Of a DNA stretch of 64,000 nt, positions 28,021-46,684 are shown one piece after another (position 1 is the first letter of the stretch; the number at the start of each line of letters is the position of its first letter). The notes below the pieces were generated by a model. It was not told the DNA's origin and did not search any database. It saw only the letters and a program-made list of their open reading frames with translations. Location of the stretch: NCBI RefSeq assembly GCF_026210795.1, contig NC_089432.1, forward strand, positions 1,860,001 to 1,924,000, read 5' to 3'. The position numbers and the translations under genes were made by a program. Source of the stretch: Rhizophagus irregularis (lineage: Eukaryota; Glomeromycota; Glomeromycetes; Glomerales; Glomeraceae).

Positions 28021-28726
28021 TAAATGTACACATTGAATTCAATAACTTTTTATTAAATCAAAAAAGTTTCGAGACATTCTTTAAAAAAACGTTTTTTAAT
28101 GTTAAAAAATGTTTTTTTTTTTGCAGGAAATCGGCTCCGGCATGGATACAAATATTCCAGGTAAAGTTTCAAAAAATTTTCGAAACTTTCTTTAAAAAAA
28201 CGTTTTTTAACATTAAAAAACGTTTCTTTTTACACTTTTATATAGGAAATCGGTTCTGGCATGGATACTGATATTCTAGGTAAGTTTTGAAAGAATTTTG
28301 AAACTTTCTTTTAAAAAAAACATTTTTAACGTAAAAAATGTTTTTTTTTTTACACTTTTATATAGGAAATCAGTTCCGGCGTGAATACCGAATCCCAAAG
28401 ATAAGTTTCAAAAAAAAAATTCTTTAATAAAACGTTTTTAAACTAAAAACATTTTATTTTTTTAATATTTTTGTAGAGATATCAGTTCTGGCGTGGATAC
28501 CGAATCCCAAAGATAAGTTTCAAAAAAAAAATTTCAAAACTTTCTTTAATAAAACGTTTTTATAATAAAAATGTTTTTTTTTATATGTTAATTATAGGGA
28601 AATCGGTTCCGGCGTGGATACCGAATTCCAAAGATAAGTTTCGAAAAAAAAATTTTGAAACTTTTTTTAATAAAACGTTTTTATAATAAAAACGTTTTTT
28701 TTATATTTTAATTATAAGGAAATCAG

Positions 28727-29293
28727 TAAAGCTTCGCACGAGCCGGCTCGAGCCGAGCTGAGCCAAAATTCGAGCCGGCTCGGCTCGATTAGAATTTTCG
28801 AGCTTGGCTCGTGTCGAGCCAACCTCGAGCCGAGCCGAGCTGAGTTTTAAGGTGGCTTGGCTCGAGCCGAGCCAAGCTTTTATCAAATTCTGCATATTTC
28901 TCGTAATTTTTTTAATTTTGGCCGGAATTAAGTAATCGACACGGAAATTTCCTTTTTTGAACACCTGAGTAACGTTACACAATCCAAAAAAGGCAATTTT
29001 ATTTCTTATCAAAAATGGGGAAATACGTTGCACAGGATTCCAAAAAAGGAAATTTCTATGTCGATCACTTAATTCCGGCCAAAATTAAAAATCACGTGAC
29101 GCCGGCAATAATAAAGAAAAAAAGTTCTGGAGCTCGCGAGCCAGCTCATAACTCGCGAGTCAGCTCGAATGAGCTGTATCAAAGCTCGGCTTGAATGAGC
29201 CGAGCCAAATTTATTACGAGCCGTGGCTCAGCTCAGCTCGATATACCTAGCTCGCGAGCCGGCTCGAGCTGGACTGGCTCGTGCGGAGCACTA
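28727..29293. mobile_element. hAT-like MITE filled with GAGCC/GGCTC repeats
   Basis: Ends TAAAGCTTCGCACGAGCC and complement of TAGTGCTCCGCACGAGCC. Flanking octamers GAAATCAG (28719-28726) and GAAATCGG (29294-29301) match at 7 of 8, and they interrupt the GAAATCGGTTCC core of an array unit. The subterminal halves consist of CGAGCC, GAGCTGAGCC and similar short repeats in both orientations. The minus-strand frame over it is a repeat artefact. Confidence 0.8.
28912..29088. mobile_element. Inner inverted-repeat core
   Basis: TAATTTTGGCCGGAATTAAG and its near-complement at the right end, extended by ATCGACA and GAAATTTCCTTTTTTG, make arms of about 45 bp. A related core occurs in the elements at 12.1 and 45.9 kb. 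It could be a nested MITE or the conserved centre of the family. Confidence 0.6.
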
Positions 29294-30299
29294 GAAATCG
29301 GTTCCAGCGTGAATACCGAATCCCAAAGATAAGTTTTGAAAAAAAAATTTTGAAACTTTCTTTAATAAAATGTTTTTATAATAAAAACGTTTTTTTTATA
29401 TTTTAATTATAGGGAAATCAGTTCCGGCGTGGATACCGAATCCCAAAGATAAGTTTTGAAAATTTTCGAAACTTTAATATAAAAAACGTTATTTTTAACA
29501 TTTTTTTTTATTTTTTTTGTAGGAATTCAGTTCCAACGAGGACGCTGATATTCCAAGTAAGTTTCGTTTTCGAAACTTCTTTAAAAAAAATGTTTTTTAA
29601 CGTTTTTTTTTATATTATTGTAGGGAAATCAGCTCCTACTTGGATACCAAATCCCATACTAAGTGAACGAATTTTAGAAACTTTGATATAAAAAAATGTT
29701 AATTTTAATTTCTAACGTTTTTTTTTATTCTTTTCCTTTCTTTCGCCCTTATTCTTTCTTCTATTGGGTGAAAAATTTTTTTTATTTATATTATTTTTTT
29801 TTATTTTGTAGGTTCAGCTTTCAGTTCTTGGGCTTTGGATATATACTAGATGAGTTTCGAAAACTTCGAAACTCTAAAAAAATATTTTTTTAATTTTTTT
29901 TTCTTCTTTGTAGGTTTCGGCTTGGGCTTTAGATATATGGGTGAGTTTTGAAGTGAAAGAATCGAAACTCAAAAAAAAAACAATTTTTTTTAATTTTTTT
30001 TTTCTTCTTTGTAGGTTTCGGCTTCCAATTCTTGGGCGTTGGATATATACTAGGTAAGTTTCGAAAACTTCAAAACTCTTTAAAAAAATTATTTTTTTAA
30101 ATTTTTTTTTCTATTTTGTAGGTTTTAGCCTCCGATTCTTGGGCGTTGGATAGGTGTGTTCAAAGTTTTGTTTTCTTTTTTCTTACAAATTATTTTATCG
30201 AAGAAACTTTAACTAATCGTTTCTTCTTTTTTTTTGTAGGTTTCTACTTCGGATTTTTGGTTTGGTAAGTTTTAAATATTTCGAAACAAATTTTTTTTA

Positions 30300-30949
30300 T
30301 TATTGCTGTTTTCTAATTACTGTGATTAAGGTTGCTTGCCGAAACCTAGGGGTTTAGGCAAGATGGCGTTTTGCCGAAAAGTGAAATTCTGCCGAAACTA
30401 TATTAAAGTTATATTAAAAAACTGGCGAAACTTTGGAGAAAGGCGAAACTGCCGAAACTTATTATAAATGCCGAAACTGCTAAAACTCTGCCGAAACTAT
30501 AATAAATCTATAGTAAAATTTTGACGAAACTAATCGTAGGATTTTGAGGAGGTTTAGACAAGCAACCTTAACTGTGATCTAGCATTATTTAATAAAAAAA
30601 AAATTTTTTGAGAAAATATGTGAAAATAAAAATTTTATTGTATTTTCAAATAAAGGAAGTATGATTATAAGCTGAAAATTACAATTTTAAGAAAAAATTT
30701 TCAATTTTTAAATAAGTTTACTTATAAGTAACTTTTTAAATTTTGTGTAACAAATCGTTTTTTAAAAAGTTATTTATAAGCAAACTTATTTAAAGATTGA
30801 AAATTTTTTCTTAAAATTATAATTTTAGCTTATAATCAAACCTCCTTTATTTGAAAATGCAATAAAATTTTTATTTTCACATATTTTCTCAAAAATTTTT
30901 TTTTTTATTAAATAATGTTAGATCACAGTAATTAGAAAACAGCAATAAA
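30300..30949. mobile_element. Foldback element in the micro-exon array
   Basis: The left arm begins TATTGCTGTTTTCTAATTAC and resumes after 30571; the right arm is its complement, ending at 30949. Without the nested MITE each arm is about 190-200 bp around a short centre near 30755. The arms match closely, with few differences. No coding capacity. Confidence 0.75.
30327..30570. mobile_element. MITE of TGCCGAAACT repeats, 8-bp TSD
   Basis: Ends TAAGGTTGCTTGCCGAAACC and complement of TAAGGTTGCTTGTCTAAACC, flanked by the perfect 8-bp duplication ACTGTGAT (30319-30326 and 30571-30578). The interior is made of GCCGAAACT-type short repeats. An 8-bp duplication points to a hAT-type transposase acting in trans. 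It interrupts the left arm of the foldback element. Confidence 0.88.
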
Positions 30950-31430
30950 GAATCGGTTTGCTAACCGTTTCTTTATTTTTTTTGTAGATTTCCCCTTTTG
31001 AACTTTATTGGATGGGCGTGTAAGTTTCGAATTTTTTGAAACTTTACTCTTTTTATTAAAGAAACGAACTAACCATTTCTTCTTTTTTTTGTAGGTTTCC
31101 ATTATCAAATTGGGGTAAGTTTCGAAAATATTTCAAAACTCATTTTTTATCGAAGAAACGTTAAACGAATTGTTTCTTCTTTTTTTTGTAGATTTCTCCC
31201 TTCGGACTTTATTGGATGGGCGTGTAAGTTTCAAATTTTCAAAACTTTATTTTTTTTATTAAAAGAAACAGTTGACTAACTATTTTTTTACTTTTTTTGT
31301 AGGTTTCCCCTTCAGATTTTATCAGATTGGGTAAGTTTCTTTTGAAACTTCAATTTTTTTATTATAAAAAATGAATTACTGACCATTTCCTCCCTTTTTG
31401 GTAGGGTTTCTTCAGACTTTTATCATGTTA

Positions 31431-32441: not shown

Positions 32442-34189
32442 TTATAATCACAAACCATTTTGCATATTTATGGCTGCTGAGATATGATGGCTTTATTTGT
32501 AAAATTGTGATTGTAGGTGCATATGTCATAAAATGCATTATGTAAATTAATTACTACAGCTTTGGTTGTTGTAGTAACCTTATAGTGAATTTTTTAAAAT
32601 TTTACTATAGTTTATTTTAATTTACTGTATGTTATTTCATATAACCAATTTTTTTGTTATACACTGTAGATATATTAAATAAAATAAAACTAATCTTGAA
32701 AGTTCATTATCAATCAAAAGTAAAGTATGTGAATGCAGTTCAAAAAATTTCTCCTTCCAAAGTTTGCCATAAAAATTTGAAGAAATGAAAATTATGCACC
32801 TGGCCAATCATTCATCAGCTGCTGGATAACAAGAAACATCCTATCAAAGCATAATGGAATAAAATCTGCAAATACACTTTAATTCTTTGATATAATTATG
32901 AAATTTGATTACATTTATCAATGATGAACATTAATATGTTTCTAATTTACAAATAACTGAACTTCCAATCCAATAATATTCCTATAAAAAACATTTATAT
33001 GATTAGTACACTGTATTTTCATATTTTACAAACACTACATATTATCATAACACCCGTATTATTACCATATAATTACAGTTTTTTTACAGTATTTTCACAG
33101 ACTGTATTTCTGCATACAATCATATTATATATACAGTTTGCATACAGTATGTTTTTTCAGTTTAACCTGTATGTTTTATACTTATAAACAGTTATTTCAT
33201 CATTTTAAACAGTAATATTTATACTTGTAAATAGTATATTTTATCAGTTTAAACAGTATGTTTTATATTTATAAATAATATATTATATAAATTATTTTAT
33301 AATAATACTAGCCAGTTTTATAAAATAATGCCAGCCAAATTTATATAAGTAATATCAATACAAATAAATTTGTAATAGTATATAAAACACTAAATAATAT
33401 TTAATTTTTTAAAAAAATAAGAAACATACTGTATATAAGATTTTTTAATAAATGTAAAATCTCTTATATTATGTAAGGATATAAAAGTTATCATTTCAAC
33501 TGAATATACAAAGTTAACATTTAAATATATGAAAGTTGTTATTTGAATATACATTTTTGTATATTCAAATGATCATTCTTGTATATTTAAATGTATAAAA
33601 GTAATCATTTGAATATATAAAAGTTATCATTTGAATATACAAAAGTTAATATTTAAATGGGTTTTGTTTTTTATCGCACCTGCGTTATGTCGCACCCTAT
33701 AATATGTTACATATAAAAGTCAAAAATGACATTCTAAATCCTTTTTGATATATTAAGAAAACTTGTAGGGCGGTCAAAAATACGTATAGTATAAGATTTC
33801 TTATAGTACATAGTAAGTGCATAAGGCCTCACGCAAGGATTTTTAAAAAATAGGAAATCTTAATGAAGTCATGTGATCAAAATGATCAACATAATTTAAT
33901 ATATAAAAACTAGTGTACATTTGGATCTGTGAGTTTTAATGCTGAAAATAAAATTTATGCTAAAAATTAGAGGTTGATTCAATAATAATATTAATAATCT
34001 TACTGATCATAACTGATTAATTAATTTAGTAAATATAAAAAAAAAATATTAAAATTTTTTTACTCATATGTTTAGTATAAGAAAGTGGTATTTATTAATT
34101 CAAATAAACAACAAAAAAAATATTAATTTAATTTTTTAAAAAAGCTCAAAGCACTTTTTTGCTTTGAAACTTACTGATAAAGTTTTGAA
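32442..34189. other. Non-coding, AT-rich
   Basis: Contains TTTTATACTTATAAACAGT-like repeats (33100-33260) and a second cluster of the 24-bp GAATATACAAAAGTTAACATTT minisatellite in both orientations (33480-33660). No gene is supported. Confidence 0.5.
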
Positions 34190-34477
34190 ATCATTTTTTA
34201 ATAAGAATAGATCAGTGTATACAATAGATAGATATAAAAAAATTTTTCTAGGATTTTTTTATATTAGATTGGTATAGTATAATGAATAGATATAAAAAAT
34301 TTTTTGGAATTTTTTTTTAATAATAATAGATTGGTATAAATATATTTTGAGTTTTTTTTAACAATAAAGTCAATAGAATAATGGATAGATATAAAAAGTT
34401 TGCTAGAATTTTTTTAATACAATAAGTTGGTAAAAAAATAATTTCTGAGATTTATGACAAATTGATTGGTATAGCAT
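34190..34477. repeat. ~60-bp repeat array, left flank of retrotransposon
   Basis: Units of the form TAATAACAATAGATTGG..ACAATAGATAGATATAAAA..TTTCTGGAATTTTTT. The same array continues at 45427-45660, 46685-47123 and 55120-56450, so it was one long array split by insertions. Confidence 0.7.
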
Positions 34478-35587
34478 TGAGATCCCCCAATTCCCTCTGT
34501 CATCAATTTACAGAGTTGCCACATCGAACGGGCATTCCCATGGTCGAACGAACGAATAAATGAATGAACGAATAAACGAACGAACGAATAAACGAACGAA
34601 CGAACAATTAAACGAACAAGCAAATAATCGACGGCATAATTAACAAATAATATAATCGCACAACAACAATATACAACAACATTCTTGGTTTACAACATAA
34701 ATAGCGTTAGTAATATAAAACATCAAGCGATATAAAATAAAATTTAACTTCTCTAAATTTTCCCCAAATTATATCCACTTTTACCTTTAATTTCAAACTT
34801 CGATAGCTCTCGCTACGAATTGTTACTTTCCAAAAGTGTATATTTAATTCACCTTAAAATTTCCATTTATTCAATTAAAATTAATTAAGCAAACATTAAT
34901 TAAAGTTTAGGGCGAACCTATTACCTTTAATTAACATTAAACTTTACTAACAAATAATTAAAAAATAAAACTTATATTTTTATTGAGTTCTGTGGATGAG
35001 AACTGTGGAATTATTTTGAATTCTGTTCTCTTTTTATACAAATTTTATGCTACTTTCTATTCTATCTATATACTATCTTTTATGTTCTTTTTACATATTA
35101 TCTTTGAACTATCTTTCTAATATACTATCTATATTTTAAATACACTATCTTTTAATATGCTATCTTTTATATATATATATATTATCTTTTATAACATCTT
35201 TGTATTATCTTTTTATATTATCTTTTATATTATTTTATGTTCTTTAATCTTTTCGACATTATTTTATATGTTCTTTCAATCCGCTTCATGTGTTTTGCTT
35301 ATAATCTATCTTTTGTGGCTTATAATTATTCTTTCTAATCGTTCTTATTGTTAAAGATTGCTAAGCCGCAATTGATCGACTCTATTTATCCTATTGGTTC
35401 TTTGTCAATCATTTGATAAATATTACATCATGTAGATCATTACTCTTCCTAAATGTTTATCCTTTTCGGCTAATTGTTTATCCATCTACGCCAATTCATA
35501 ATCAATTTGTTCGTTCTTAATATTTGGCAATTACATTTGGTGATTGAATTTTATCATCTTTTCATGCTTGATATTCGACCGTTTACA
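34478..35587 (-). repeat. 3' LTR of the retrotransposon
   Basis: In element orientation it begins TGTAAACGG and ends GGGATCTCA (TG...CA). It contains CGAACGAATAAA-type tandem units (34545-34615) and TATCTTTTATAT repeats. Frames within it are repeat artefacts. Confidence 0.93.
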
Positions 35588-35602
35588 TTATCCCCCTCTT
35601 CG
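35588..35602 (-). other. Polypurine tract
   Basis: In element orientation GCGAAGAGGGGGATAA lies directly before the 3' LTR, the expected plus-strand primer site. Confidence 0.8.
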
Positions 35603-35662
35603 CTATTTGTGACCTCACAAATAACTTTGATAGAATCGAACTCGTGTCTTATCCATAATATT

Positions 35663-36889
35663 TTACTCGAATCGAACTCGGGTCTTATCGAATACCTCTT
35701 TTCCTTTAATTACTATTTTTGGTGTAAATCTCCCTCGATCATAAAATTTCTTTAACCATTCTCCATTTTGTGAAGTCTTTAGTATTCTTCCATCCAATTC
35801 TTTGAGTTTATATGCCCCATTTCCAAATTCTTCGTGAATTAAATATGGTCCTTTCCATTTGTTCTGTAATTTTCCAGACCATTGTTTTTCTCTTCACGCT
35901 TCGTATAATAATACTTTTTCTCCTATTTCAAATTTAGGTTTCCTAATTCCTCTTTTGTCATGTTGTTGTTTTTGTTTTTCTTGAGCTTCTTCCACGTTCT
36001 CTTTTATTTTTCTTCTTATTACTGGTAGCTCCTCAATTAGTATTTTTACTCTATCAGCTAATGTTATCTTGTTTTCATCTTTGTCTAATGGTAATTTCGC
36101 TCTCCTTCCGTACGTTGCATAAAAAGGTTTAATTCTTGTTGACGATTGCTTCTTTGTTCTGTATGCAAATAATACGGATGGTATATGTTTATCCCAGTTT
36201 TCTTCTCCTAATTTGGCTAATCCTTCGCATAAAGTTTTATTGAATCTTTCGACCAAACCATTTGTTTGTGGCCTATATGGTGTACTTAATCTATGATTTA
36301 TCCCACATCTTTCTACTAATTCCTCCATCATTCTATTGTTAAAGTGAGTCCCTCTATCGCTAATTATTTTCTTTGGACACCCATGTCTACAAATTATATC
36401 CCTCCAAATAAATTCTACTACCTCTTTCGCTGTAGCTTCTTTTAGTGGTGCAGCCTCGGGCCATTTTGTAAAATAATCCATTACTACTACAATATACTTA
36501 TTTCCCTTTTCTGTCTCTTTTAATGGTCCAACTATATCTATTCCAATCATCTCGAATGGTTCATTTATCTTTATCGGCATTAATTCGTTCTTTCCTCTTG
36601 GTTTTCCTCTCATTTGACAATTCCAACACGTTTTTACATATTCTTCTACATCTTCTTTCATATTTTTCCACCAATAGTTTTCTTTTATTCTATCTAATGT
36701 CGCTTCTACTCCAAAATGTCCTGATAATTCGTTATCATGCATCATGTACATCAATCCTTCGTATTCATAATCCCTGATTACTCTAAATTTGTTTTGTCCT
36801 TTTACTCTATATAGAATTCCTTCTTTCAATTCATATTTATTCTCCTTTTCGATATTGTCAATTATTCTCTTGTAATTATTTTCTTCCAT
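35663..36889 (-). pseudogene. Integrase with in-frame stop
   Basis: Retrotransposon integrase, which inserts the cDNA. From M at 36889, the HHCC zinc domain uses H51/H58 and C88/C91 (KTCWNCQ). The catalytic triad D118 (IGIDIVGP), D178 (IISDRG) and E214 (NGLVERF) has the D35E spacing. Residues 1-331 are open to a TGA at 35894-35896. The same frame continues through the GPY/F-type module (KWKGPYLIHEEFGNGAYKL) to a TAA at 35663. No chromodomain is seen. The TGA lies where CGA (Arg) would fit, so a single transition is likely. The start is in a different frame from the RT ORF, with about 50 bp between. Confidence 0.9.
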
Positions 36890-36938
36890 AATACCTCTTT
36901 AATTGATTTCGCTTCTAAATTTGTTATGTTCTGTATTT

Positions 36939-39020
36939 TTAGTTCTGTGCTCTTCTCCATTTCTCCACCTCTTTAAATACTTTTCTCCAACTACTATTGT
37001 CATTTTTAACTTTTACTCGACTGTATCTTTTAGTATCTTCGTACACGCCCTGATTTTCTTCAAACATTCTAACCATGTCCAAATATTCATCCTTCTTTAA
37101 TGTTGGATATGATGATTTTTCCGTTTTCTTTGTTTCTCTTCCAATGTAATTTTTCCAACATACGTCGCCATCTTTTTCTAAAAATATCACTATTGATTTA
37201 TCTATTGTTTCTTTCAATCTGAATATTTCTTTTTCCATCTCATGATTTCCATGTGGAGTAATTAATCCTCTGTCAAAACTTTTCGTTTTTTGATAATAAT
37301 ATTCACAATATGGTGATTTGTCTAAAATTATTATATCTGTATCTTCATCATATTCTAACATTCTTCTGTTTATTTGTTCTACTACTTCTTTTCTAAATTT
37401 CCATTCCGTCTCCATCTTTGATTCATAAAATTCATCTTTGTCTTTTCTTCTTCTTTTATAAGTATTGAATCTTACTTTTAATCCTTGTTTTTCCCATTCT
37501 TTAATTAAATTTTGTACTATACTTGTTTTTCCTAATCCGTCTACTCCGTCGATTATTACTATTTCTGGTTGATCCTCTACTATCTTTAATAACCTACTTA
37601 ATGCGTCGGCGTTCGTATTTTCTTTTCCCGACCTATGTATTACTTCAAAATTATATTGCTGTAATTCCATCACCCATCTTGCTCTTTTTCCTTTTGGTAT
37701 CTTTGCATTCATTAATCCTTTTAATGCACTGTGATCTGTTATTACTTTAAATTTTCTATCGATTAAATATTTATGAAAATGTTGAATTCCCCAAACTATT
37801 CCTAAACATTCCAATTCTGTTATCGGATAATTTTCTTCTGCTGGTAATAAACTTCTACTTGCATATGCTATTACTACTTCTTTTCCCTTTTCATCTTTTT
37901 GACTTAATACTGCACCTAATCCTCTTCCTGATGCATCTGTTATCAATAGAAATTCTTTCTTCCAATCCGGATGTCGCAATATTGGATATTGTATTAACTT
38001 TTCTTTCAACTTTTCAAACGCTTCTTGTTGTTCTCTTCCCCAAATGAAAGGTATTCCCTTCTTTCTCAAATCACTTATTGGTCTTGCTATCTTTGAAAAA
38101 TTCTTCATAAATTTTCTGTAATATGAACAAAGTCCCAAAAATGATCTTACTTCTTTCACTGTTATTGGTGCCTTCATTTCTTTTATCTTTTCTATCTTTT
38201 TATCGTCTGGCCTTAATCCATCATTTCCTACTATATGTCCTAAAAATTCTATGTTTCTTTCCAAAAATCTACATTTCTTTAATTTTATTATCAAATTATT
38301 CTCCTGTAACTTCTTTAATACTTTTTCCACATGTTCCATATGGTCTTTTAAATTTTCTGAATATATCATAATATTGTCAATATATACTACTACAAAATCG
38401 TTTATGTATTCTTCTAATATTTCATCCATTAATCTTTGAAATGTTGCTGGTGCATTCGTTAAACCGAATGGCATTACATTATATTCAAACAATCCTTTCG
38501 AACATACAAATGCTGTTTTTTCTTTGTCTTCTTCTTTCATTTCTACCTGATTAAATCCTGCCGCTAAATCTATACTTGAAAACCATTTTGCTTTTCTGTA
38601 TTTGTCTAATAATTCATCCATTCTTGGTAAAGGAAAACTATCCATTATAGTTATCTTATTTAACTTTCTGTAATCAATGCAAAATCTATATTTTCCTGTT
38701 TTCTTTCCTGCTAATGTAACAGGTGAACTCCATGGACTTTTTGATTTTCTTATCCTTCCTTGTTTTAACAATTTATCCACTTCTTCGCTTATAAATTTTG
38801 CCTTTTCATCTGTTTCTTTGTATCTTCTTTGCTTTATTGGTTCTACCCCATCTTTTATTTTTATCTCATGTTGCGCTGCTTTTGTTCTTCCTTCTATTTC
38901 CTCATCGTATTCCAAAATATCTTGGTATTCTAATAGTAATTTTACCATATTTTTCCAAATTGGTTCTTCTACTTCCCCTATACTTAGTTTTTGCATAAAT
39001 TTTTCACTTGGTTCGAGCAT
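36939..39020 (-). CDS. RT-RNase H fused to deoxynucleoside/thymidylate kinase-like domain
   Basis: One uninterrupted 693-residue frame. Reverse transcriptase (about 55-260): first catalytic Asp in SSIDLAAGF (D151), MPFGLTNAPATFQ, and VVYIDNIMIYS at 211-221, where the second Asp of YxDD is Asn216. RNase H (about 355-475): D362 (TDASGRG), E402 (TELEC), D429 (TDHS) and ADALSRL. Residues 484-693 are not part of a usual Pol: IVIIDGVDGLGKTSIV is a P-loop (GxDGxGKT/S), IILDKSPYCEYYYQ matches the DR(S/Y)xxS substrate region of dNMP/deoxynucleoside kinases, and 623-645 (GRETKK..) is a lid-like basic stretch. The domain is followed at once by the stop, then by integrase. The coding frame opens 5' of M1 at about IESLGSEE. 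Ty3 polymerases normally go straight from RNase H to integrase. It may supply dNTP precursors (inference). Confidence 0.9.
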   Translation of the reverse strand: MLEPSEKFMQKLSIGEVEEPIWKNMVKLLLEYQDILEYDEEIEGRTKAAQHEIKIKDGVEPIKQRRYKETDEKAKFISEEVDKLLKQGRIRKSKSPWSSPVTLAGKKTGKYRFCIDYRKLNKITIMDSFPLPRMDELLDKYRKAKWFSSIDLAAGFNQVEMKEEDKEKTAFVCSKGLFEYNVMPFGLTNAPATFQRLMDEILEEYINDFVVVYIDNIMIYSENLKDHMEHVEKVLKKLQENNLIIKLKKCRFLERNIEFLGHIVGNDGLRPDDKKIEKIKEMKAPITVKEVRSFLGLCSYYRKFMKNFSKIARPISDLRKKGIPFIWGREQQEAFEKLKEKLIQYPILRHPDWKKEFLLITDASGRGLGAVLSQKDEKGKEVVIAYASRSLLPAEENYPITELECLGIVWGIQHFHKYLIDRKFKVITDHSALKGLMNAKIPKGKRARWVMELQQYNFEVIHRSGKENTNADALSRLLKIVEDQPEIVIIDGVDGLGKTSIVQNLIKEWEKQGLKVRFNTYKRRRKDKDEFYESKMETEWKFRKEVVEQINRRMLEYDEDTDIIILDKSPYCEYYYQKTKSFDRGLITPHGNHEMEKEIFRLKETIDKSIVIFLEKDGDVCWKNYIGRETKKTEKSSYPTLKKDEYLDMVRMFEENQGVYEDTKRYSRVKVKNDNSSWRKVFKEVEKWRRAQN

Positions 39021-39055
39021 CTTTTCCGTCTCTCTCTCTTCAGAGCCAAGACTCT

Positions 39056-39559
39056 CTATTTAAAATTCTGGTGCATTCTGAATACCTCTCCTTCATCGTT
39101 ACTTTCGTATTCTTCATCGTCCTCGCTCTCCTCACTTTCATATGCCACTTCTCTTTCATATCCTACTGGAATCGTTATTATTTCTCCCTGTTCTTCTATC
39201 CTTAAGGTATGATCCTCAAAATTTATTTTTGCATTATACAGCTTCCATATATCATTTCCCAAAATTAGATCCTCTTCTTCTGAATCGATTACTTCAACTT
39301 CTTTTAGTATCTCTAATTCATCTTTGTATCTCAAAGTTATATTTGCCTTTCCTAATGCTGCTATCTTTTGTCCATTTGCTATTGTACATCTAAATTTACT
39401 TTTTCCAAATATAGGTATATTCAATCTTCTTCTTAATTTATCTGTTATCACACTTACTGCTGCTCCAGTATCTATTATTACATTCACTAATTGATCTTCA
39501 ACTTCTAATTCTGTTCTCATTGCTGTAGTTCTCTTTTCCTCATTTTTCATAGTTCCCAC
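39056..39559 (-). CDS. Retropepsin-like aspartic protease
   Basis: Gag-Pol processing protease. The catalytic motif is VIIDTGAAVSVI, with a partner LILGNDIW (ILGxD) about 60 residues later, as in retropepsins, and an acidic C-terminal tail. It is in the same frame as Gag, separated from it only by the stop TGA at 39569-39571 followed by CTA. The TAG at 39056-39058 ends it. RT starts in the -1 frame about 36 bp downstream, so either a frameshift event or an indel joins the two. Confidence 0.88.
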   Translation of the reverse strand: MGTMKNEEKRTTAMRTELEVEDQLVNVIIDTGAAVSVITDKLRRRLNIPIFGKSKFRCTIANGQKIAALGKANITLRYKDELEILKEVEVIDSEEEDLILGNDIWKLYNAKINFEDHTLRIEEQGEIITIPVGYEREVAYESEESEDDEEYESNDEGEVFRMHQNFK

Positions 39560-39568
39560 CGAGCGTAG

Positions 39569-41119
39569 TCAATTTTTCTCGTTTATGCTTCTTGGTCTAT
39601 ATGTTCCTTCTCTCAATTGTTTATGATACTTAGGATTCTCATTTATCATTTGTCCAATTGTTATATTCGCTCTACAATTTTTCACGTCTCCCACAATGTC
39701 GTAAGGTGGTATTCCATCAGTTAATCTCGGTCCATACTCTCTGGGTTTTGTTGGTCCTCCTGCTTCTCTCCATTTTCTTAGTCCCTCTGTTGGGTCGTAA
39801 TAATCTTGCCTTTTATTACTCCATTTCATTTTTCTTGGTCCTATCGGTCTATCCCAATTCTGTTCAGTTCGTTCAGGTGTATACCTTGGTGTTGTTGTAC
39901 CACTTGGTATTTCCCTATCATCCATTCTATTTCCCGCTTCTCTTAATTCTTCTTGTAAATTTCCTTCTTCATTATTATTTTTATATCCCACTACTGGATT
40001 CGTCCTTCTTGTTTGTCTTCTTGTCTTTACTGCGTTATCTTTTGCGTATAATTCATTATGATAATTTAATTCCCTATCTTCATAATCATCATAATAACCT
40101 TGTGTATAATACATTTCACCGTATTGTGGTTCCTCATCTTCATATCCATTATAATCATATTCTTCTTGGTCATCATATTCGTCCATCATATTCACTCCTA
40201 CATTCCTTCTTTTCTCTGGACACTCTCTTGAATAATGACCAGCTCTACCACATGTATAGCATGTCGGTACTCTTTTTTGGAATGACTGATTTCTTTGAAT
40301 TGGTTGATTTCTTTGCATTGGTTGGTTTCTTTGCATTGGTTGGTTTCTTTGTGGCAATCGCCTATAGCTCTGACTCACTAAATTTCTTAATCTTTCATTC
40401 TCATCTTCTAACATCTTAATTTGTAACTTCGCAAAACTGTCTGCTAATTCATCTACACTTACCTCTTTATTATTCCTTACATTCCCTTGAACAATAGGTT
40501 CTTGTCTTCTTTGTTCATCATTAATTCCTTTTGGTCGTAATTTATCTGTTAATGCTTCTAAACCTCTTTCTACGTTCTTTGCTATCTGAAATGCTGCATT
40601 TAAATCTGCTGGATTTCCTATTACTACGTCTTTAGTAAAGTCCGGTTTTAATCCTCTATTAAAAATTCTCTTTTGCTGATTTGCTGCTACTGCTGCATCA
40701 CCTTCCGCTCTCTTTAACATATACTTAAATCTCGTAAGGTATTGAGTTACATTCTCGTCTCCCTGTCTAATCTTTTCTAATTGTTCTAGCCATCTATCTT
40801 TAATTTCATCACTTGCATACTTTCCAATTATTCTTACTCTTAATCTTAAATTATGATCTCCATTAACATTCCAATCGACAATATTTACTCCTTCAGTCTT
40901 TAACCAATCTGCTGCTCCTCCCATTAATTTCGCTTTTGCTATTCTAAATCTCTGTGCATCATCATTCCCTAAACCATTCGCTGTAAATGTCTCCTCAAAT
41001 TTATCTGCCCACTCTTCTGGATCTTCTCCACTGGTACCATAAAATGCTGGTATTTCTACAATAGCTCCTCTATTTGCGTTTAAATTTCCTATCGCATTAG
41101 TATTCGCTTGAACTTCTCC
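39569..41119 (-). CDS. Gag capsid/nucleocapsid region
   Basis: Structural protein that packages the RNA. The frame is open from 41119 (after the TAA at 41120-41122) to the TGA at 39569. The retrotransposon Gag domain is seen around FYGTSGEDPEEWADKFEETF and WLEQLEKIRQGDENVTQYLTRFKYM. A short RNQPMQ repeat precedes the CCHC zinc knuckle CYTCGRAGHYSREC. A Tyr/Asp/Glu-rich tail follows. The first in-frame Met is at 40924, but the Gag homology starts upstream, so the TAA is probably a mutation within one longer Gag. Confidence 0.9.
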   Translation of the reverse strand, partial: GEVQANTNAIGNLNANRGAIVEIPAFYGTSGEDPEEWADKFEETFTANGLGNDDAQRFRIAKAKLMGGAADWLKTEGVNIVDWNVNGDHNLRLRVRIIGKYASDEIKDRWLEQLEKIRQGDENVTQYLTRFKYMLKRAEGDAAVAANQQKRIFNRGLKPDFTKDVVIGNPADLNAAFQIAKNVERGLEALTDKLRPKGINDEQRRQEPIVQGNVRNNKEVSVDELADSFAKLQIKMLEDENERLRNLVSQSYRRLPQRNQPMQRNQPMQRNQPIQRNQSFQKRVPTCYTCGRAGHYSRECPEKRRNVGVNMMDEYDDQEEYDYNGYEDEEPQYGEMYYTQGYYDDYEDRELNYHNELYAKDNAVKTRRQTRRTNPVVGYKNNNEEGNLQEELREAGNRMDDREIPSGTTTPRYTPERTEQNWDRPIGPRKMKWSNKRQDYYDPTEGLRKWREAGGPTKPREYGPRLTDGIPPYDIVGDVKNCRANITIGQMINENPKYHKQLREGTYRPRSINEKN

Positions 41120-42618
41120 TTATAATCCTGTCAATGTTACTGGTGGTAATACTAAATTGTTCCAATCTGCCCCAATATCATGATTATACATAGTATTCAT
41201 TAATGCTCTTAGATCTGCTCTGAGTTCATCTCTTGATGCTGCCATTGTTATCTTTGGTTTTATTGGTGGTACTGGTGTTATTGGTATTATAGGTACTTCC
41301 TTTGATTTTTTATTTTTCTCTTTACTTTTTGGTTTTTTACTTGAGCCAATTTCGGGTCTTTTTATATCCTCTTCCATTTCATCTTCATCATCTGTTGGAT
41401 TTTCTTTTTCAATATCTTTTTCACATTCTATGCAGGTTTCTTTTCCAATTTCAAATTCTTTCTTTAATCTTTCAATTTCACATCTTCCGCATTCTTTTGT
41501 GTTTTCAACTCTCCATTGTAATATTTGTTCATCTAATTTTTCATCTTCAAGATTCCATATTGTTAAATATTTCTTCATAAATTCATATGTTGTTATTATC
41601 TTTGTGGTTACTCCAAATTTTCTTATTCTTTCAATTTCCGTTATTTCTACATCATATCCCATTCTTTTCAAATCCATTCTAATTATTTCTTCGAATATCT
41701 TTGTTGTTTCTGTTTCTTCAACATTATTAGATTCAATAGATTCATCAGATTCCTCATCTGACATTTCTTCATTTTTACTAATTGGTAAATTTTCTTCCTC
41801 CCCATCGTCTGTTTCTGTTATAGTATAACTTCTTGGTGTGTCATCACTATCTGTTTCATCTATATTTAATTGCTCAAATCCCCTAATCTTATCATAAACT
41901 TTTCAGTTATTTCTTTGCTAATTCCCCAACCATGTTCACGAACTTTTATGTGCATTGTGTGCAACATTAATCTAATCTTTTGTTTGAACGCTTCTATCTT
42001 TTCTGTTGACTCGTCTTCTTTTAATTCAGCTTCTTCATATAATATATTTTTGTACCTTCTAATAGTGCTATCTTTACATTCTACAAAATCTGTTATAGCT
42101 TCTTTATACCATTCATAAAATTCCCCAAATCTTATATTCACGTCCCAATCTTCCAAAATATAACCATATCTTATTAATTCTTCATTCCCTATCAATCTGT
42201 CCATTGTTTTATCTTCTTTATCATTTTCTATACAATCTCTCACGATCACTATTATTATTATCTTTAATCCTTTTTCTCTTAATACCGGTTGTTTCAAGTA
42301 TCTTATCGATTCGACCATTACATCTAATGCATCTCTAGTTCTTCCTTTTGTATAATTATTTCTTTCTTCACTATCTATACTCAGTAAATTTAATAACGCT
42401 CTTATAGTTTCTGCATTATAATCTTTTATCGTATATTCAAATTTTTGCAATATTTTCCAAAATTTCTTGAAAACTTCTGGTGTATCTCTTATTGGATAAC
42501 ATATTTCACATGTTATATTTTCTCCTCTTAATTCGTCTATATCTACATTTCCGATATTTTCGTCATGTCTTAATTTGTGGTTCTCGTAATCAACCCTCCA
42601 AGTTTCATACCATTCCAT
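41120..42618 (-). pseudogene. Long N-terminal extension of Gag, frameshifted
   Basis: Two frames that appear to be one ancestral protein: 42618-41866 (250 residues, MEWYETWRVDYENHK..) and 41764-41120 (214 residues, with open frame upstream to about 41870). Near 41880, in a run of G bases, the first frame ends (LGDLSN) while the sequence continues in the other as FEQLNIDETDSDD. The second frame has two CxxC-type cysteine pairs (ECGRCE, CIECEKD) that may bind zinc, then a basic, proline-rich stretch. It leads in frame through the TAA at 41120 into the capsid part. Function unknown; about 500 residues ahead of a capsid domain is unusually long. Confidence 0.7.
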
Positions 42619-44312
42619 CGTTGTAATCGTTCATCCAGAATCTTAACTAAAATCTTACCTTCTTTTATATATATATATTTCACTCTCATCGTTTCTATTT
42701 TCAATCTTCTATGTTTCTATTTTCAATCTTCTAAACATTCTTTTATCTTTAAATAGATTGCTCCTTTCAATCTTTAAATTCCATCTTTCAGTTTTATATA
42801 TTTACTACTCCATATTCTATTATTAATTTTTACTGCGCCTTAAAATTTCAAAAAAATTTTCTAAGTCCACAATCTCCTCAGACTGCGGAGGTTTTTACTG
42901 CGCCACCAAGCTTATCTTTTATCACCGATATCCATAATTTCACATGTCACCTCTTTTTGTCACTGTGATTCATAATTTCACTTATCACATCTTTTTGTCA
43001 CCAAGATCCATAATTTCACATATCACATCTTTTTGTCACCAAGATCCATAATTTCACATATCACATCTTTTTGTCACCAAGATCCATAATTTCACATATC
43101 ACAAACTCCAAAATTTTCATAACTTTTAGAGTTTGCGGATTTCCAATCTTTCTTATCGTCCACATAAATCCTTCTTACTATATATTCTATATTATATAAA
43201 TTAATCTATAATACGCAAAATGTCGTTCTTTTCAGATAAATGTCCTTCTTTTCAAATAAATGTTCTTTTTCAGATAAATATTCTTTTTCAAATAAATGTT
43301 CTTCTTTTAAATAAATGTTCTTCTTTTAAATAAACGTCCTTCTTTTCGGATTTTACTCTATTATTAAATACTGCACGTAATGTTCATTATACGGCTCGTT
43401 AATGTGTAAATATCCTTCTATTTTATCTTCTTTTAACGGAACATTGTAATGAGAGCGTGACCTAGCACACTACACCAGGAACCCTCATCTGAAATGTAGC
43501 CTAGGACCTGTAACAATACAACGTATCCATTTTTCCTCCTTCGTTGGCCGACTTGTCTCTTAACGGGTGAATCTAACCTTCCAAAATCCAGTTTCAAAAG
43601 TCATCAGCTATCCATAAAACTCATCTAAACCAACTTATCTTTCCTCAAATTGGTGGACCTATACTGGGCTTATCTCTATCTTTTCCCCATTGGGTAAAAG
43701 CATAATAGTTTACAGGTTTGTCCCATTTTATCCATTCAATATTTCTTGATAGTAGGTGTCTTTACAATTTTCATTCCCCGTCCCCAAAGCAATTTGCGCA
43801 TTATTGAGCTGGGTATCCAGATTTGACGTAACCCATACGTTATAATCCTTAATATTGAAGAATAAAAATTTTCCAATCTCGAGCATTTATCCAAAATTCA
43901 AACTCAGAGGTAACCCATACCACACAGATGAACCCCGGATAATACATTGGTGTTCTCCCATTATTAATCTTTATTCCAAAACTCATCTTTCACTTCCACA
44001 TCTCCTTATGAAATTTCTCAGGTACTTTATTCCCGAAAGAAATATTCTTGTGCTTTCTATCAATTAGGTGATTACTTGCACAACAACAAACTTCAATCTT
44101 TCACCTTTTCAAGTTTTTAACTCAATTAAATCCTTATTGATTTATTGGTTCCTTTTGAACTCGTTAAAACCTGAAATCTAAAAATAAATTCTAAAATAAA
44201 ATATTGATTAATAATACCTATCAGTGACTTACTAACGAAATTAAATTTTCATATTCATTATAATAATAATCATGTGATGATGATCATTTCCTTTCTTGCG
44301 AGCATGCACCAT
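42619..44312 (-). other. Retrotransposon leader with tandem repeats
   Basis: 1.7 kb between the 5' LTR and Gag with no open frame of note. 42950-43100 holds four ~37-bp repeats (ACCAAGATCCATAATTTCAC) and 43215-43345 about six ~24-bp repeats (CTTTTCAAATAAATGTTC). It may carry packaging signals, but nothing can be assigned. Confidence 0.65.
44297..44310 (-). other. Primer-binding site
   Basis: In element orientation TGGTGCATGCTCGC starts two bases (TA) after the 5' LTR end TCTCA. TGG is the complement of a tRNA CCA tail, so a tRNA ending GCGAGCATGCACCA would prime reverse transcription. The tRNA was not identified. Confidence 0.7.
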
Positions 44313-45426
44313 ATGAGATCCCCCAATTCCCTCTGTCATCAATTTACAGAGTTGCCACATCGAACGGGCATTCCCATGGTCGAACGAACGAATAAACGAA
44401 CAAACGAATAAATGAACGAACGAATAAATGAACGAACGAACAATTAAACGAACAAGCAAATAATCGACGGCATAATTAACAAATAATATAATCAACGCAC
44501 AACAACAATATACAACAACATTCTTGGTTTACAACATAAATAGCGTTAGTAATATAAAACATCAAGCGATATAAAATAAAATTTAACTTCTCTAAATTTT
44601 CCCCAAATTATATCCACTTTTACCTTTAATTTCAAACTTCGATAGCTCTCGCTACGAATTGTTACTTTCCAAAAGTGTATATTTAATTCACCTTAAAATT
44701 TCCATTTATTCAATTAAAATTAATTAAACAAACATTAATTAAAGTTTAGGGCGAACCTATTACCTTTAATTAACATTAAACTTTACTAACAAATAATTAA
44801 AAAATAAAACTTATATTTTTATTGAGTTCTGTGGATGAGAACTGTGGAATTATTTTGAATTCTGTTCTCTTTTTATACAAATTTTATGCTACTTTCTATT
44901 CTATCTATATACTATCTTTTATGTTCTTTTTACATATTATCTTTGAACTATCTTTCTAATATACTATCTATATTTTAAATACACTATCTTTTAATATGCT
45001 ATCTTTTATATATATATATATTATCTTTTATAACATCTTTGTATTATCTTTTTATATTATCTTTTATATTATTTTATGTTCTTTAATCTTTTCGACATTA
45101 TTTTATATGTTCTTTCAATCTGCTTCATGTGTTTTGCTTATAATCTATCTTTTGTGGCTTATAATTATTCTTTCTAATCGTTCTTATTGTTAAAGATTGC
45201 TAAGCCGCAATTGATCGACTCTATTTATCCTATTGGTTCCTTGTCAATCATTTGATAAATATTACATCATGTAGATCATTACTCTTCCTAAATGTTTATC
45301 CTTTTCGGCTAATTATTTATCCATCTACGCCAATTCATAATCAATTTGTTCGTTCTTAATATTTGGCAATTACATTTGGTGATTGAATTTTATCATCTTT
45401 TCATGCTTGATATTCGACCGTTTACA
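44313..45426 (-). repeat. 5' LTR of the retrotransposon
   Basis: Near copy of 34478-35587. I see about ten differences, mostly C/T transitions plus a 3-nt indel near 44496 and changes in the CGAACGAATAAA units. Its end abuts the GCAT duplication. Confidence 0.93.
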
Positions 45427-45952
45427 GCATAATAGAGAGAAAATTCTTTGTGTTTTTTTTTTAGTAAAAATAGATGAGTATAGTAGAATAGATAGGTATA
45501 AATGATTTTTGGAATCTTTTCTTAATAACAATAGATTAGGATAATACAATAGATAGATATAAAAAAATTTCCTGTGATTTTTTTAATAATAGATCGGTAT
45601 AGTATATATAATAGATAGATATAATAAAGAAATTTTCTGAATTTTTTTTTCTACTTTTGATCGTGATTTTTGATCAGTTACACTAAAAATTATGACCAAT
45701 AAATTTAACTGTAAGATGACCAACTGACCGTTCAACGTGAACCACTAAAAACGTAGATCGTTTTGATCAAATAGATAATACTGACAGAAATAAACAAAAA
45801 CAACAAACTACTAATTAATTGGTTGGTTAATAGTTTATCACAATCAATCAATCATCTGCTCAAAATTGAACTTTAATCGCAAATTTTGGTTAGTTTTTAG
45901 TTTTTGTGATCAAAATGCCAATCAATTAATTCTGGAGTAGACTAGAGTCAAT
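45427..45952. repeat. ~60-bp array remnant and plain AT-rich DNA
   Basis: 45430-45660 continues the GATAGATATAAAAAATTTTCTGG array interrupted by the retrotransposon. 45660-45945 is unremarkable, with several TTGATCA/TGATCAAA stretches. No gene. Confidence 0.6.
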
Positions 45953-46684
45953 TAGTGCTCCTAACAGATCAGATCAGACCAGATTTTACTTAGATTCAAT
46001 CTGATCTGAAATTAATTAAATCTGATCTGATCTGATCTGATCTGATTCGAATCTGATTAAATCTGATCTGATCTGAATCTGATCTGAATCTAATCTGAAT
46101 CTGATCTGAATCTGGTCTGAATCTGAATAAATATGTTATAAATTCTAAAGTTATAATTTGTAATTCCAGTCAAATTCAAAATTCTGAAATTTCAGCCAAA
46201 ATGCCAAAATTAAATATGTAATTCGGCCAGAATTATGCACTTAACTCTGGCAGGAATTATTGAATTTCCCAAAAAGGAAATTTAGGTTACATAAAATGCC
46301 AAATTTGTTCCTATAAAAATCGATTTTTGTGGAATGGCTATCGCCAAAAAAGGAAATGATCGACATATCAGTTTTGGCTGGAGTTTAAAATTATGAATTA
46401 ATTCCAGCCGGCATTATGAATTCGGCTGAAATTATTAGTAAAATCAAATCTGAGATCTGAATCAAATCTGTCAGATCCAATCTGATCAGATTCAGATTTT
46501 AAATAAGTCTAATCTGAATCTGATCTGATCTGATCTGATCTGATCTGAAATTAATCTGATTTATTCAGATCAAATTTTTTTGATCTGAATCTGAACTGCA
46601 GATTAAATTTATCTGATCTGATCTGAATCTGACAGATCAGATTCAGATTAAATCTGATCAGATCAGATTTTTTTCGGAGCACTA
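45953..46684. mobile_element. hAT-like MITE filled with TCTGATC repeats
   Basis: Terminal repeats TAGTGCTCC and GGAGCACTA are flanked by the perfect 8-bp duplication GAGTCAAT (45945-45952 and 46685-46692). Both halves are runs of TCTGATCTGA/AATCTGATC. The centre (46155-46445) is a GGCC-AATTAT, CCAAAAAGGAAATTT core like those at 12.1 and 28.9 kb. Non-coding. Confidence 0.88.

Follow-up and report, generated by a model that had tools for sequence, protein, structure and literature searches.

A Ty3/gypsy retrotransposon lineage of arbuscular mycorrhizal fungi with a thymidylate kinase-like domain between RNase H and integrase

Results

The window analysed here is a 64,000-nt stretch of the Rhizophagus irregularis genome (146.7 Mb in 32 contigs; window G000:C4:1860001-1924000). 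On its minus strand, at positions 34478-45426, lies a long terminal repeat (LTR) retrotransposon of the Ty3/gypsy type, from arbuscular mycorrhizal fungi, whose Pol contains a nucleotide kinase-like domain. An initial annotation of the same letters had reported this domain in one open frame after RNase H (RH) and before the integrase (IN) open reading frame (ORF), and we confirmed that observation: the frame is open over 706 codons (36939-39059; the ORFs, domains, motifs and LTRs of the element are on the minus strand), and Pfam placed reverse transcriptase (RT) at residues 119-277 (RVT_1, 2.3e-43) and RNase H at residues 340-469 (RT_RNaseH, 5.4e-37), as in Ty3/gypsy elements. The RNase H tail NADALSRL (residues 483-490, 37590-37613) marks the fusion point with the kinase domain (36942-37571), which is predicted to adopt the fold of thymidylate kinases (TMK) and deoxynucleoside kinases (dNK). 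The annotated P-loop DGVDGLGKTS is present at residues 504-513 (37521-37550), equivalent to 491-500 when counted from the first Met, followed by DKSPYCEYYYQ at residues 580-590 (37290-37322). The basic segment that had been described as lid-like is also there (NYIGRETKK, residues 637-645, 37125-37151), and its role as a lid is putative. The integrase ORF (35894-36898 from stop to stop) lies in a different frame, with its first ATG (36889) about 50 nt past the kinase stop, and encodes an H2C2 zinc finger and an rve core (Pfam Integrase_H2C2, 1.2e-21; rve, 6.5e-15).

The LTRs and the order of the coding parts are also those of Ty3/gypsy retrotransposons. The 3' LTR (34478-35587, beginning with TG on the plus strand) matches the 5' LTR (44314-45426, ending with CA on the plus strand); the two are 1110 and 1113 bp long and 98.9% identical over 1113 aligned columns, and the pair is flanked on both sides by a target-site duplication, GCAT, read directly from the sequence (34474-34477 and 45427-45430, unstranded). 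In the order of transcription, the element encodes two upstream ORFs, Gag, an aspartic protease (PR), the RT-RNase H-kinase frame and integrase, so that Gag, PR and RT-RH precede IN. Gag (39569-41119) has a capsid match and a CCHC zinc knuckle (Pfam Retrotrans_gag, 2.7e-5; zf-CCHC, 7.6e-7), and PR (39056-39568) matches gag-asp_proteas (3.4e-9).

A protein search of the genome returned 151 kinase-domain matches, 150 of them listed. Among the matches listed, 56 copies had 94% identity or more across 221 or more of the 223 residues, 53 of these 56 without an internal stop; other groups of copies stood at 84-87%, about 60% and about 56% identity, with intermediates between them. We sorted the matches into four main families (F1 to F4) plus intermediates, and read 20 loci for context, all outside the group with at least 94% identity. 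In F2 (L035-L041) and F3 (L043-L049), RT, RH and kinase share one frame of up to 777-779 aa, and IN comes after it. In F4 (L050-L054), RT-RH occupies 493 aa (four of five loci) and the kinase forms the N-terminal part of a kinase-integrase frame of 522-600 aa. Three families thus have the kinase joined to RT-RNase H, and F4 has it joined to integrase. IN followed the kinase in all 20 loci read and RT or RNase H preceded it in 19 (the exception being L052); the kinase therefore keeps its place between RNase H and IN, while its fusion partner varies.

We then compared RNase H loci with and without the domain, as counts among the matches listed or scored (150 each for kinase and RNase H), in which a very diverged kinase would escape. 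A listed kinase match lay within 1.5 kb downstream of 87 of the 150 scored RNase H loci, and 63 had none. Where the kinase was present, RNase H and the integrase zinc finger lay a median of 907 nt apart (n = 53, 871-1565 nt); where it was not, the median gap was 339 nt (n = 31; 27 at 334-347 nt and four at 1238-1778 nt). Those four (G000:C23:946397, C11:1394211, C21:2897237 and C25:2643764) may carry a different insertion in the slot, or a kinase that has diverged strongly. Among the 150 listed kinase loci, a listed IN accompanied 95 and a listed RH 90; both were listed for 55 and neither for 20. Of these last 20, nine had an RT-RH match, and L052 had IN in the same frame.

Metagenomes and three further Glomeromycotina species also yielded relatives. 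In two protein searches, all listed matches that carried an organism name came from Glomeromycotina (R. irregularis, R. clarus, R. diaphanus and Glomus cerebriforme), among them P0001, an R. irregularis protein of 352 aa that is 98% identical to the window domain; the remaining matches were mostly metagenome proteins, whose source label was often thymidylate kinase. Pfam identified RT/RNase H or IN beside the kinase, in the expected order, in seven relatives (RT or RNase H in P0071, P0079 and P0090; IN in P0042, P0074, P0079, P0087 and P0088), and P0079 from R. clarus contains RNase H, kinase and IN within one annotated protein. The order proposed by the initial annotation thus recurs in other copies and other species. 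This suggests that some Glomeromycotina proteins named thymidylate kinase-like (P0029, P0047 and P0056) are parts of retrotransposons.

The kinase is under purifying selection between families. Using the Nei-Gojobori method on 204-208 codons, we obtained a kinase dN/dS of 0.08-0.10 for F1 versus F2 (dS 0.61-0.72) and of 0.05-0.24 for all between-family pairs with finite dS, many of them near saturation. Between-family values for RT-RH were similar to those for the kinase, and those for IN reached 0.31. Because the domain recurs in 151 genome matches and in other Glomeromycotina and is under purifying selection between families, chance can be excluded as its explanation.

The modules of the element appear to have separate histories. 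F2 and F3 were 78-79% identical in RT-RH and 87-89% in IN, and F2 and F1 were 68-69% and 63-64% identical, respectively. The kinase showed the reverse, with 87-88% identity between F1 and F2 and 60-64% between F2 and F3. The identity profile switched near the start of the kinase, the F2 linker ahead of it being still F3-like. Maximum-likelihood trees of representatives (11, 11 and 10 sequences for RT-RH, kinase and IN, respectively) grouped F2 with F3 for RT-RH (99/99) and IN (100/99) and F2 with F1 for the kinase (99/96). By these alignments and trees, the kinase of F2 groups with F1 and its RT-RNase H and IN with F3, which is the pattern of a module swap, and replacement of the kinase by recombination between co-packaged element RNAs would be the simplest account. 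The last part of RNase H was most alike between F1 and F3 (0.84-0.89 over 19-45 residues), so the exchange history was not one clean event. These results indicate that retrotransposon families can exchange a single accessory enzyme.

To assess residue conservation, we relied on an alignment, A1, of 35 rows, comprising the window and 34 of 67 matches from one of the two protein searches that gave the relatives, picked for near-complete length; motif counts on a second set, 48 domains extracted from 50 loci by motif pattern, are partly circular. In the numbering of the 223-residue piece searched, G22 (the first P-loop glycine), R55, F72, R73, N81, R83, D97, K98, Y101, R114, R158 and E159 were invariant in A1, and D24, G25, G27 and K28 were conserved in at least 90% of rows. 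The complete P-loop pattern was present in 31 of 35 rows and DKSPY in 34 of 35. The initial annotation had matched DKSPYCEYYY to the DRxxxS region of dNMP/deoxynucleoside kinases, and the match held in position: DKSPYCEYFYQ aligned to DRHDLSTQAYQ in Escherichia coli Tmk and to DRTPLSSYFF in a dNK that this genome encodes. That dNK, L055 (1480-2490, minus strand; G000:C28:1224005-1224616), is a 336-aa frame outside the retroelement family, with a PF01712 domain at residues 131-328 (1.2e-31).

Profile and structure comparisons placed the domain in the TMK/dNK group. The two findings that the initial annotation had named as fatal to its reading, absence from other copies and placement in an unrelated P-loop family without kinase residues, did not occur. 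Pfam TMK matched 29 of the 35 members, and dNK (PF01712) matched 7 of 35 at E up to 0.01 (best 1.6e-4); P0074, another family member, scored 30.2 bits for Thymidylate_kin. In the predicted model, the kinase fold of PF02223 spans the whole domain, and all 50 structural neighbours, among the matches listed, were nucleotide or nucleoside kinases, with TMK and human dGK/dCK structures tied. Naming the domain by PDB sequence search (phmmer, A1 profile) was dropped, the matches being mainly to the P-loops of FtsY/SRP proteins; TMK appeared at E 0.11-0.16, in one run only. Together, the alignments and the model support membership of the TMK/dNK group with the motif residues retained. The nucleoside/thymidylate kinase type named by the initial annotation stands at the level of that group, within which the structures tie; the annotation had rightly put forward enzyme type and role as conjecture.

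With regard to origin, the closest sequences outside recognisable retroelements were the metagenomic proteins P0092 and P0117, in which a NUDIX domain precedes the kinase. The hhalign value for P0117 was 1.6e-33, and P0092 was 40-49% identical to genomic copies, among the matches listed. A NUDIX-kinase ancestor of the retroelement kinase is only a lead. Pattern scans of viral contigs and of prokaryotes (one genome per bacterial or archaeal species), which reach only sequences sharing short peptides, confirmed no relative and found no viral or bacterial donor. A tblastn search of phages with P0009, P0092 and P0117 gave weak matches only; a phage thymidylate kinase, L065, was 26% identical to the L043 domain over 206 residues, with an E-value (1.8e-8) that derives from six short loci and is not genome-scale. 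Host TMK gained no support as the source: the domains of L001, L043, L045 and L050, compared by tblastn with three PF02223 loci out of four, which are intron-split genes searched exon by exon, gave only chance matches (the fourth locus, L033, which adjoins a kinase-family fragment, was omitted).

Other features of the element and its surroundings were recorded alongside. Two ORFs, taken from the ORF list and the Pfam run, lie upstream of Gag. The 260-aa ORF (41120-41902) shares one frame with Gag and PR (39056-41902), with single stops between them, as if read-through were used. In the 254-aa ORF (41866-42630), the sequence from the first Met begins MEWYETW, and P0081, an R. irregularis protein containing the kinase, begins with the similar MEWYHQW, so this ORF looks conserved in the lineage. 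The 5' leader contains a tandem repeat (42917-43106) with a spacing of 38 bp. Rfam gave no match at the gathering threshold over 33000-46500. In the flank, short exon-like repeated units of families D2, D4, D5 and D6 (28058-31333) perhaps belong to a repeat-protein gene with many introns.

Discussion

We propose, with a probability of roughly 0.68, that the Pol of a Ty3/gypsy lineage gained a P-loop kinase of the TMK/dNK group between RNase H and IN, which would supply deoxynucleoside triphosphates (dNTPs) beside RT. Pol domains are packaged into particles within the Gag-Pol polyprotein, which the protease then cleaves. The kinase would likewise be carried into virus-like particles within Gag-Pol and then be released by the protease or work while still fused. 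There it would pass a phosphate from ATP to a deoxynucleotide precursor, our best guess being dTMP to dTDP, with a deoxynucleoside as the next candidate, and so would raise dNTP supply beside reverse transcriptase. The coding part of the element has a GC content of 31-33%, so demand for dTTP and dATP is high; this fits a TMK and proves nothing.

Several observations weigh against this proposal. Thymidylate kinases typically have a DR motif after strand 3. At the aligned position the family carries DK, and E. coli Tmk and the genomic dNK carry DR; this departure from the two enzymes is a real one. The window sequence scored 19.9 bits against the Pfam Thymidylate_kin cut-off of 27 bits, and nSTAND3 ranked slightly above Thymidylate_kin for the 223-residue piece; we therefore describe the domain as TMK-like and do not file it as a PF02223 member. 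FtsY, AAA and STAND P-loop families matched about equally often, mostly at the P-loop part, and the P-loop pattern was broken in 4 of 35 A1 rows (P0021, P0029, P0031 and P0050). hhalign favoured L055 (1.3e-10, 110 columns) over E. coli Tmk (2.1e-4), in a comparison with one single sequence on each side. The RT motif of the window copy is YIDN (38373-38384); DD was found in 34 of 36 matched frames, the remaining two being the window locus read twice (some other loci are also present twice), and the window copy may not be active. Within families, the kinase looked less constrained than RT-RH: its dN/dS was 0.06-0.31 in six pairs (0.08 for L001/L025, 0.31 for L035/L041, 0.06-0.11 in F3 and 0.15 for L050/L054) versus 0.03-0.05 for RT-RH, and for L035/L040 it was 0.35 for the kinase versus 0.19 for RT-RH, values that are based on few changes per pair.

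A deoxynucleoside kinase acting in salvage, in place of a nucleoside monophosphate kinase, is a sub-case of our proposal, with overlapping odds, and is possible though doubtful. The structural tie with human dGK and dCK and the hhalign result for L055 speak for it, whereas the P-loop, GVDGxGKT, is nearer to GLEGAGKT of E. coli Tmk than to GGIGVGKS of L055, and Pfam matched TMK in more members than dNK. It is unlikely that the domain has kept its fold and its ATP or nucleotide binding only as a structural spacer, nucleotide sensor or RT/IN-binding part. A lysine does replace the arginine of the TMK DR motif, fusion to RT-RH or IN would suit a docking part, and the dUTPase-related gene of bovine immunodeficiency virus is described, in the retrieved portion of PMC4261571, as critical even though its protein lacks dUTPase activity; however, families that share about 55-60% identity keep the P-loop, DKSPY and lid residues almost unchanged, for which a spacer would have no need. 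Still less probable is a polynucleotide 5'-kinase whose substrates would be the ends of cDNA or RNA, not free nucleotides. Such enzymes are related P-loop kinases, and the NUDIX-kinase relatives weakly match those of phages (P0092 to phrog_505, E 0.0016; phage tblastn, E 4e-3 to 0.9), but it is thymidylate kinase profiles that the retroelement domains match, and the 50 structural neighbours listed are nucleotide or nucleoside kinases. Finally, retroelements do pick up host sequence, but a recent, functionless host-gene capture hitch-hiking in one element family is hardly credible and contradicted by the data, given four families in several species, low between-family dN/dS, the module swap and the chance-level matches to three of the four host TMK loci.

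Returning to a dNTP-supplying kinase, we give even odds to the full combination of claims: that this would be the first known retroelement to phosphorylate its own dNTP precursors, with a kinase packaged with RT, selected across a Glomeromycotina lineage, swapped as a unit and derived from a NUDIX-kinase-related gene, not from host TMK. In resting cells, reverse transcription is limited by nucleotide supply, and dUTPase is, to our knowledge, the one answer to this inside retroelement Pol. A kinase in the same slot would, if true, mean that retroelements can take on the synthetic side of nucleotide metabolism as well; it would also be a natural example, open to testing, of an RT that has a dNTP-making partner of its own. 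We rate the element as an LTR retrotransposon whose accessory enzyme is of a new kind. Searches of open-access full text, with subscription papers and preprints outside their scope, found no earlier description of a retroelement nucleotide kinase. The main texts of PMC5408684, PMC6431247 and PMC3248453, the last a survey of fungal LTR elements, never use the word kinase (0 occurrences), and in the retrieved parts of two papers on R. irregularis transposable elements (PMC8647823 and PMC11075540) it refers to the expanded signalling gene families of the fungus.

The closest functional parallel is the dUTPase of non-primate lentiviruses. The retrieved sections of PMC4531489 give the Pol order RT-RH-dUTPase-IN for feline immunodeficiency virus, equine infectious anaemia virus, caprine arthritis-encephalitis virus and visna virus, and report that the enzyme is needed mainly in non-dividing cells. 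It, too, is an enzyme of nucleotide metabolism placed between RNase H and IN, but it has another fold, hydrolyses dUTP instead of transferring a phosphoryl group and belongs to mammalian retroviruses. As described in excerpts of PMC2864245, PMC5408684 and PMC6431247, dUTPase domains also occur in LTR elements of basidiomycetes, bdelloids and planarians. These are Gypsy-type elements with an acquired nucleotide-metabolism domain too, although in those excerpts their dUTPase sits between PR and RT or at one end of Pol, unlike the kinase. Orchid Ty3/Gypsy elements carrying a 2-oxoglutarate-dependent dioxygenase (2-ODD) that demethylates N6-methyladenosine (portions of PMC9289625) are likewise a Gypsy lineage that has stably acquired an enzyme, and differ in the separate ORF, the enzyme and its role. 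Outside recognisable retroelements, the NUDIX-kinase fusions P0092 and P0117 show the closest likeness and differ by their N-terminal NUDIX domain and by having no RT or IN in the same protein. The TMK family (PF02223, PHROG_761; Staphylococcus aureus TMK, 4qg7) has the predicted fold, the P-loop and the motif order in common with the retroelement domain, which differs in its 10-12% identity to the S. aureus chains, among the structural matches listed, in DK for DR and in a window score under the Pfam cut-off.
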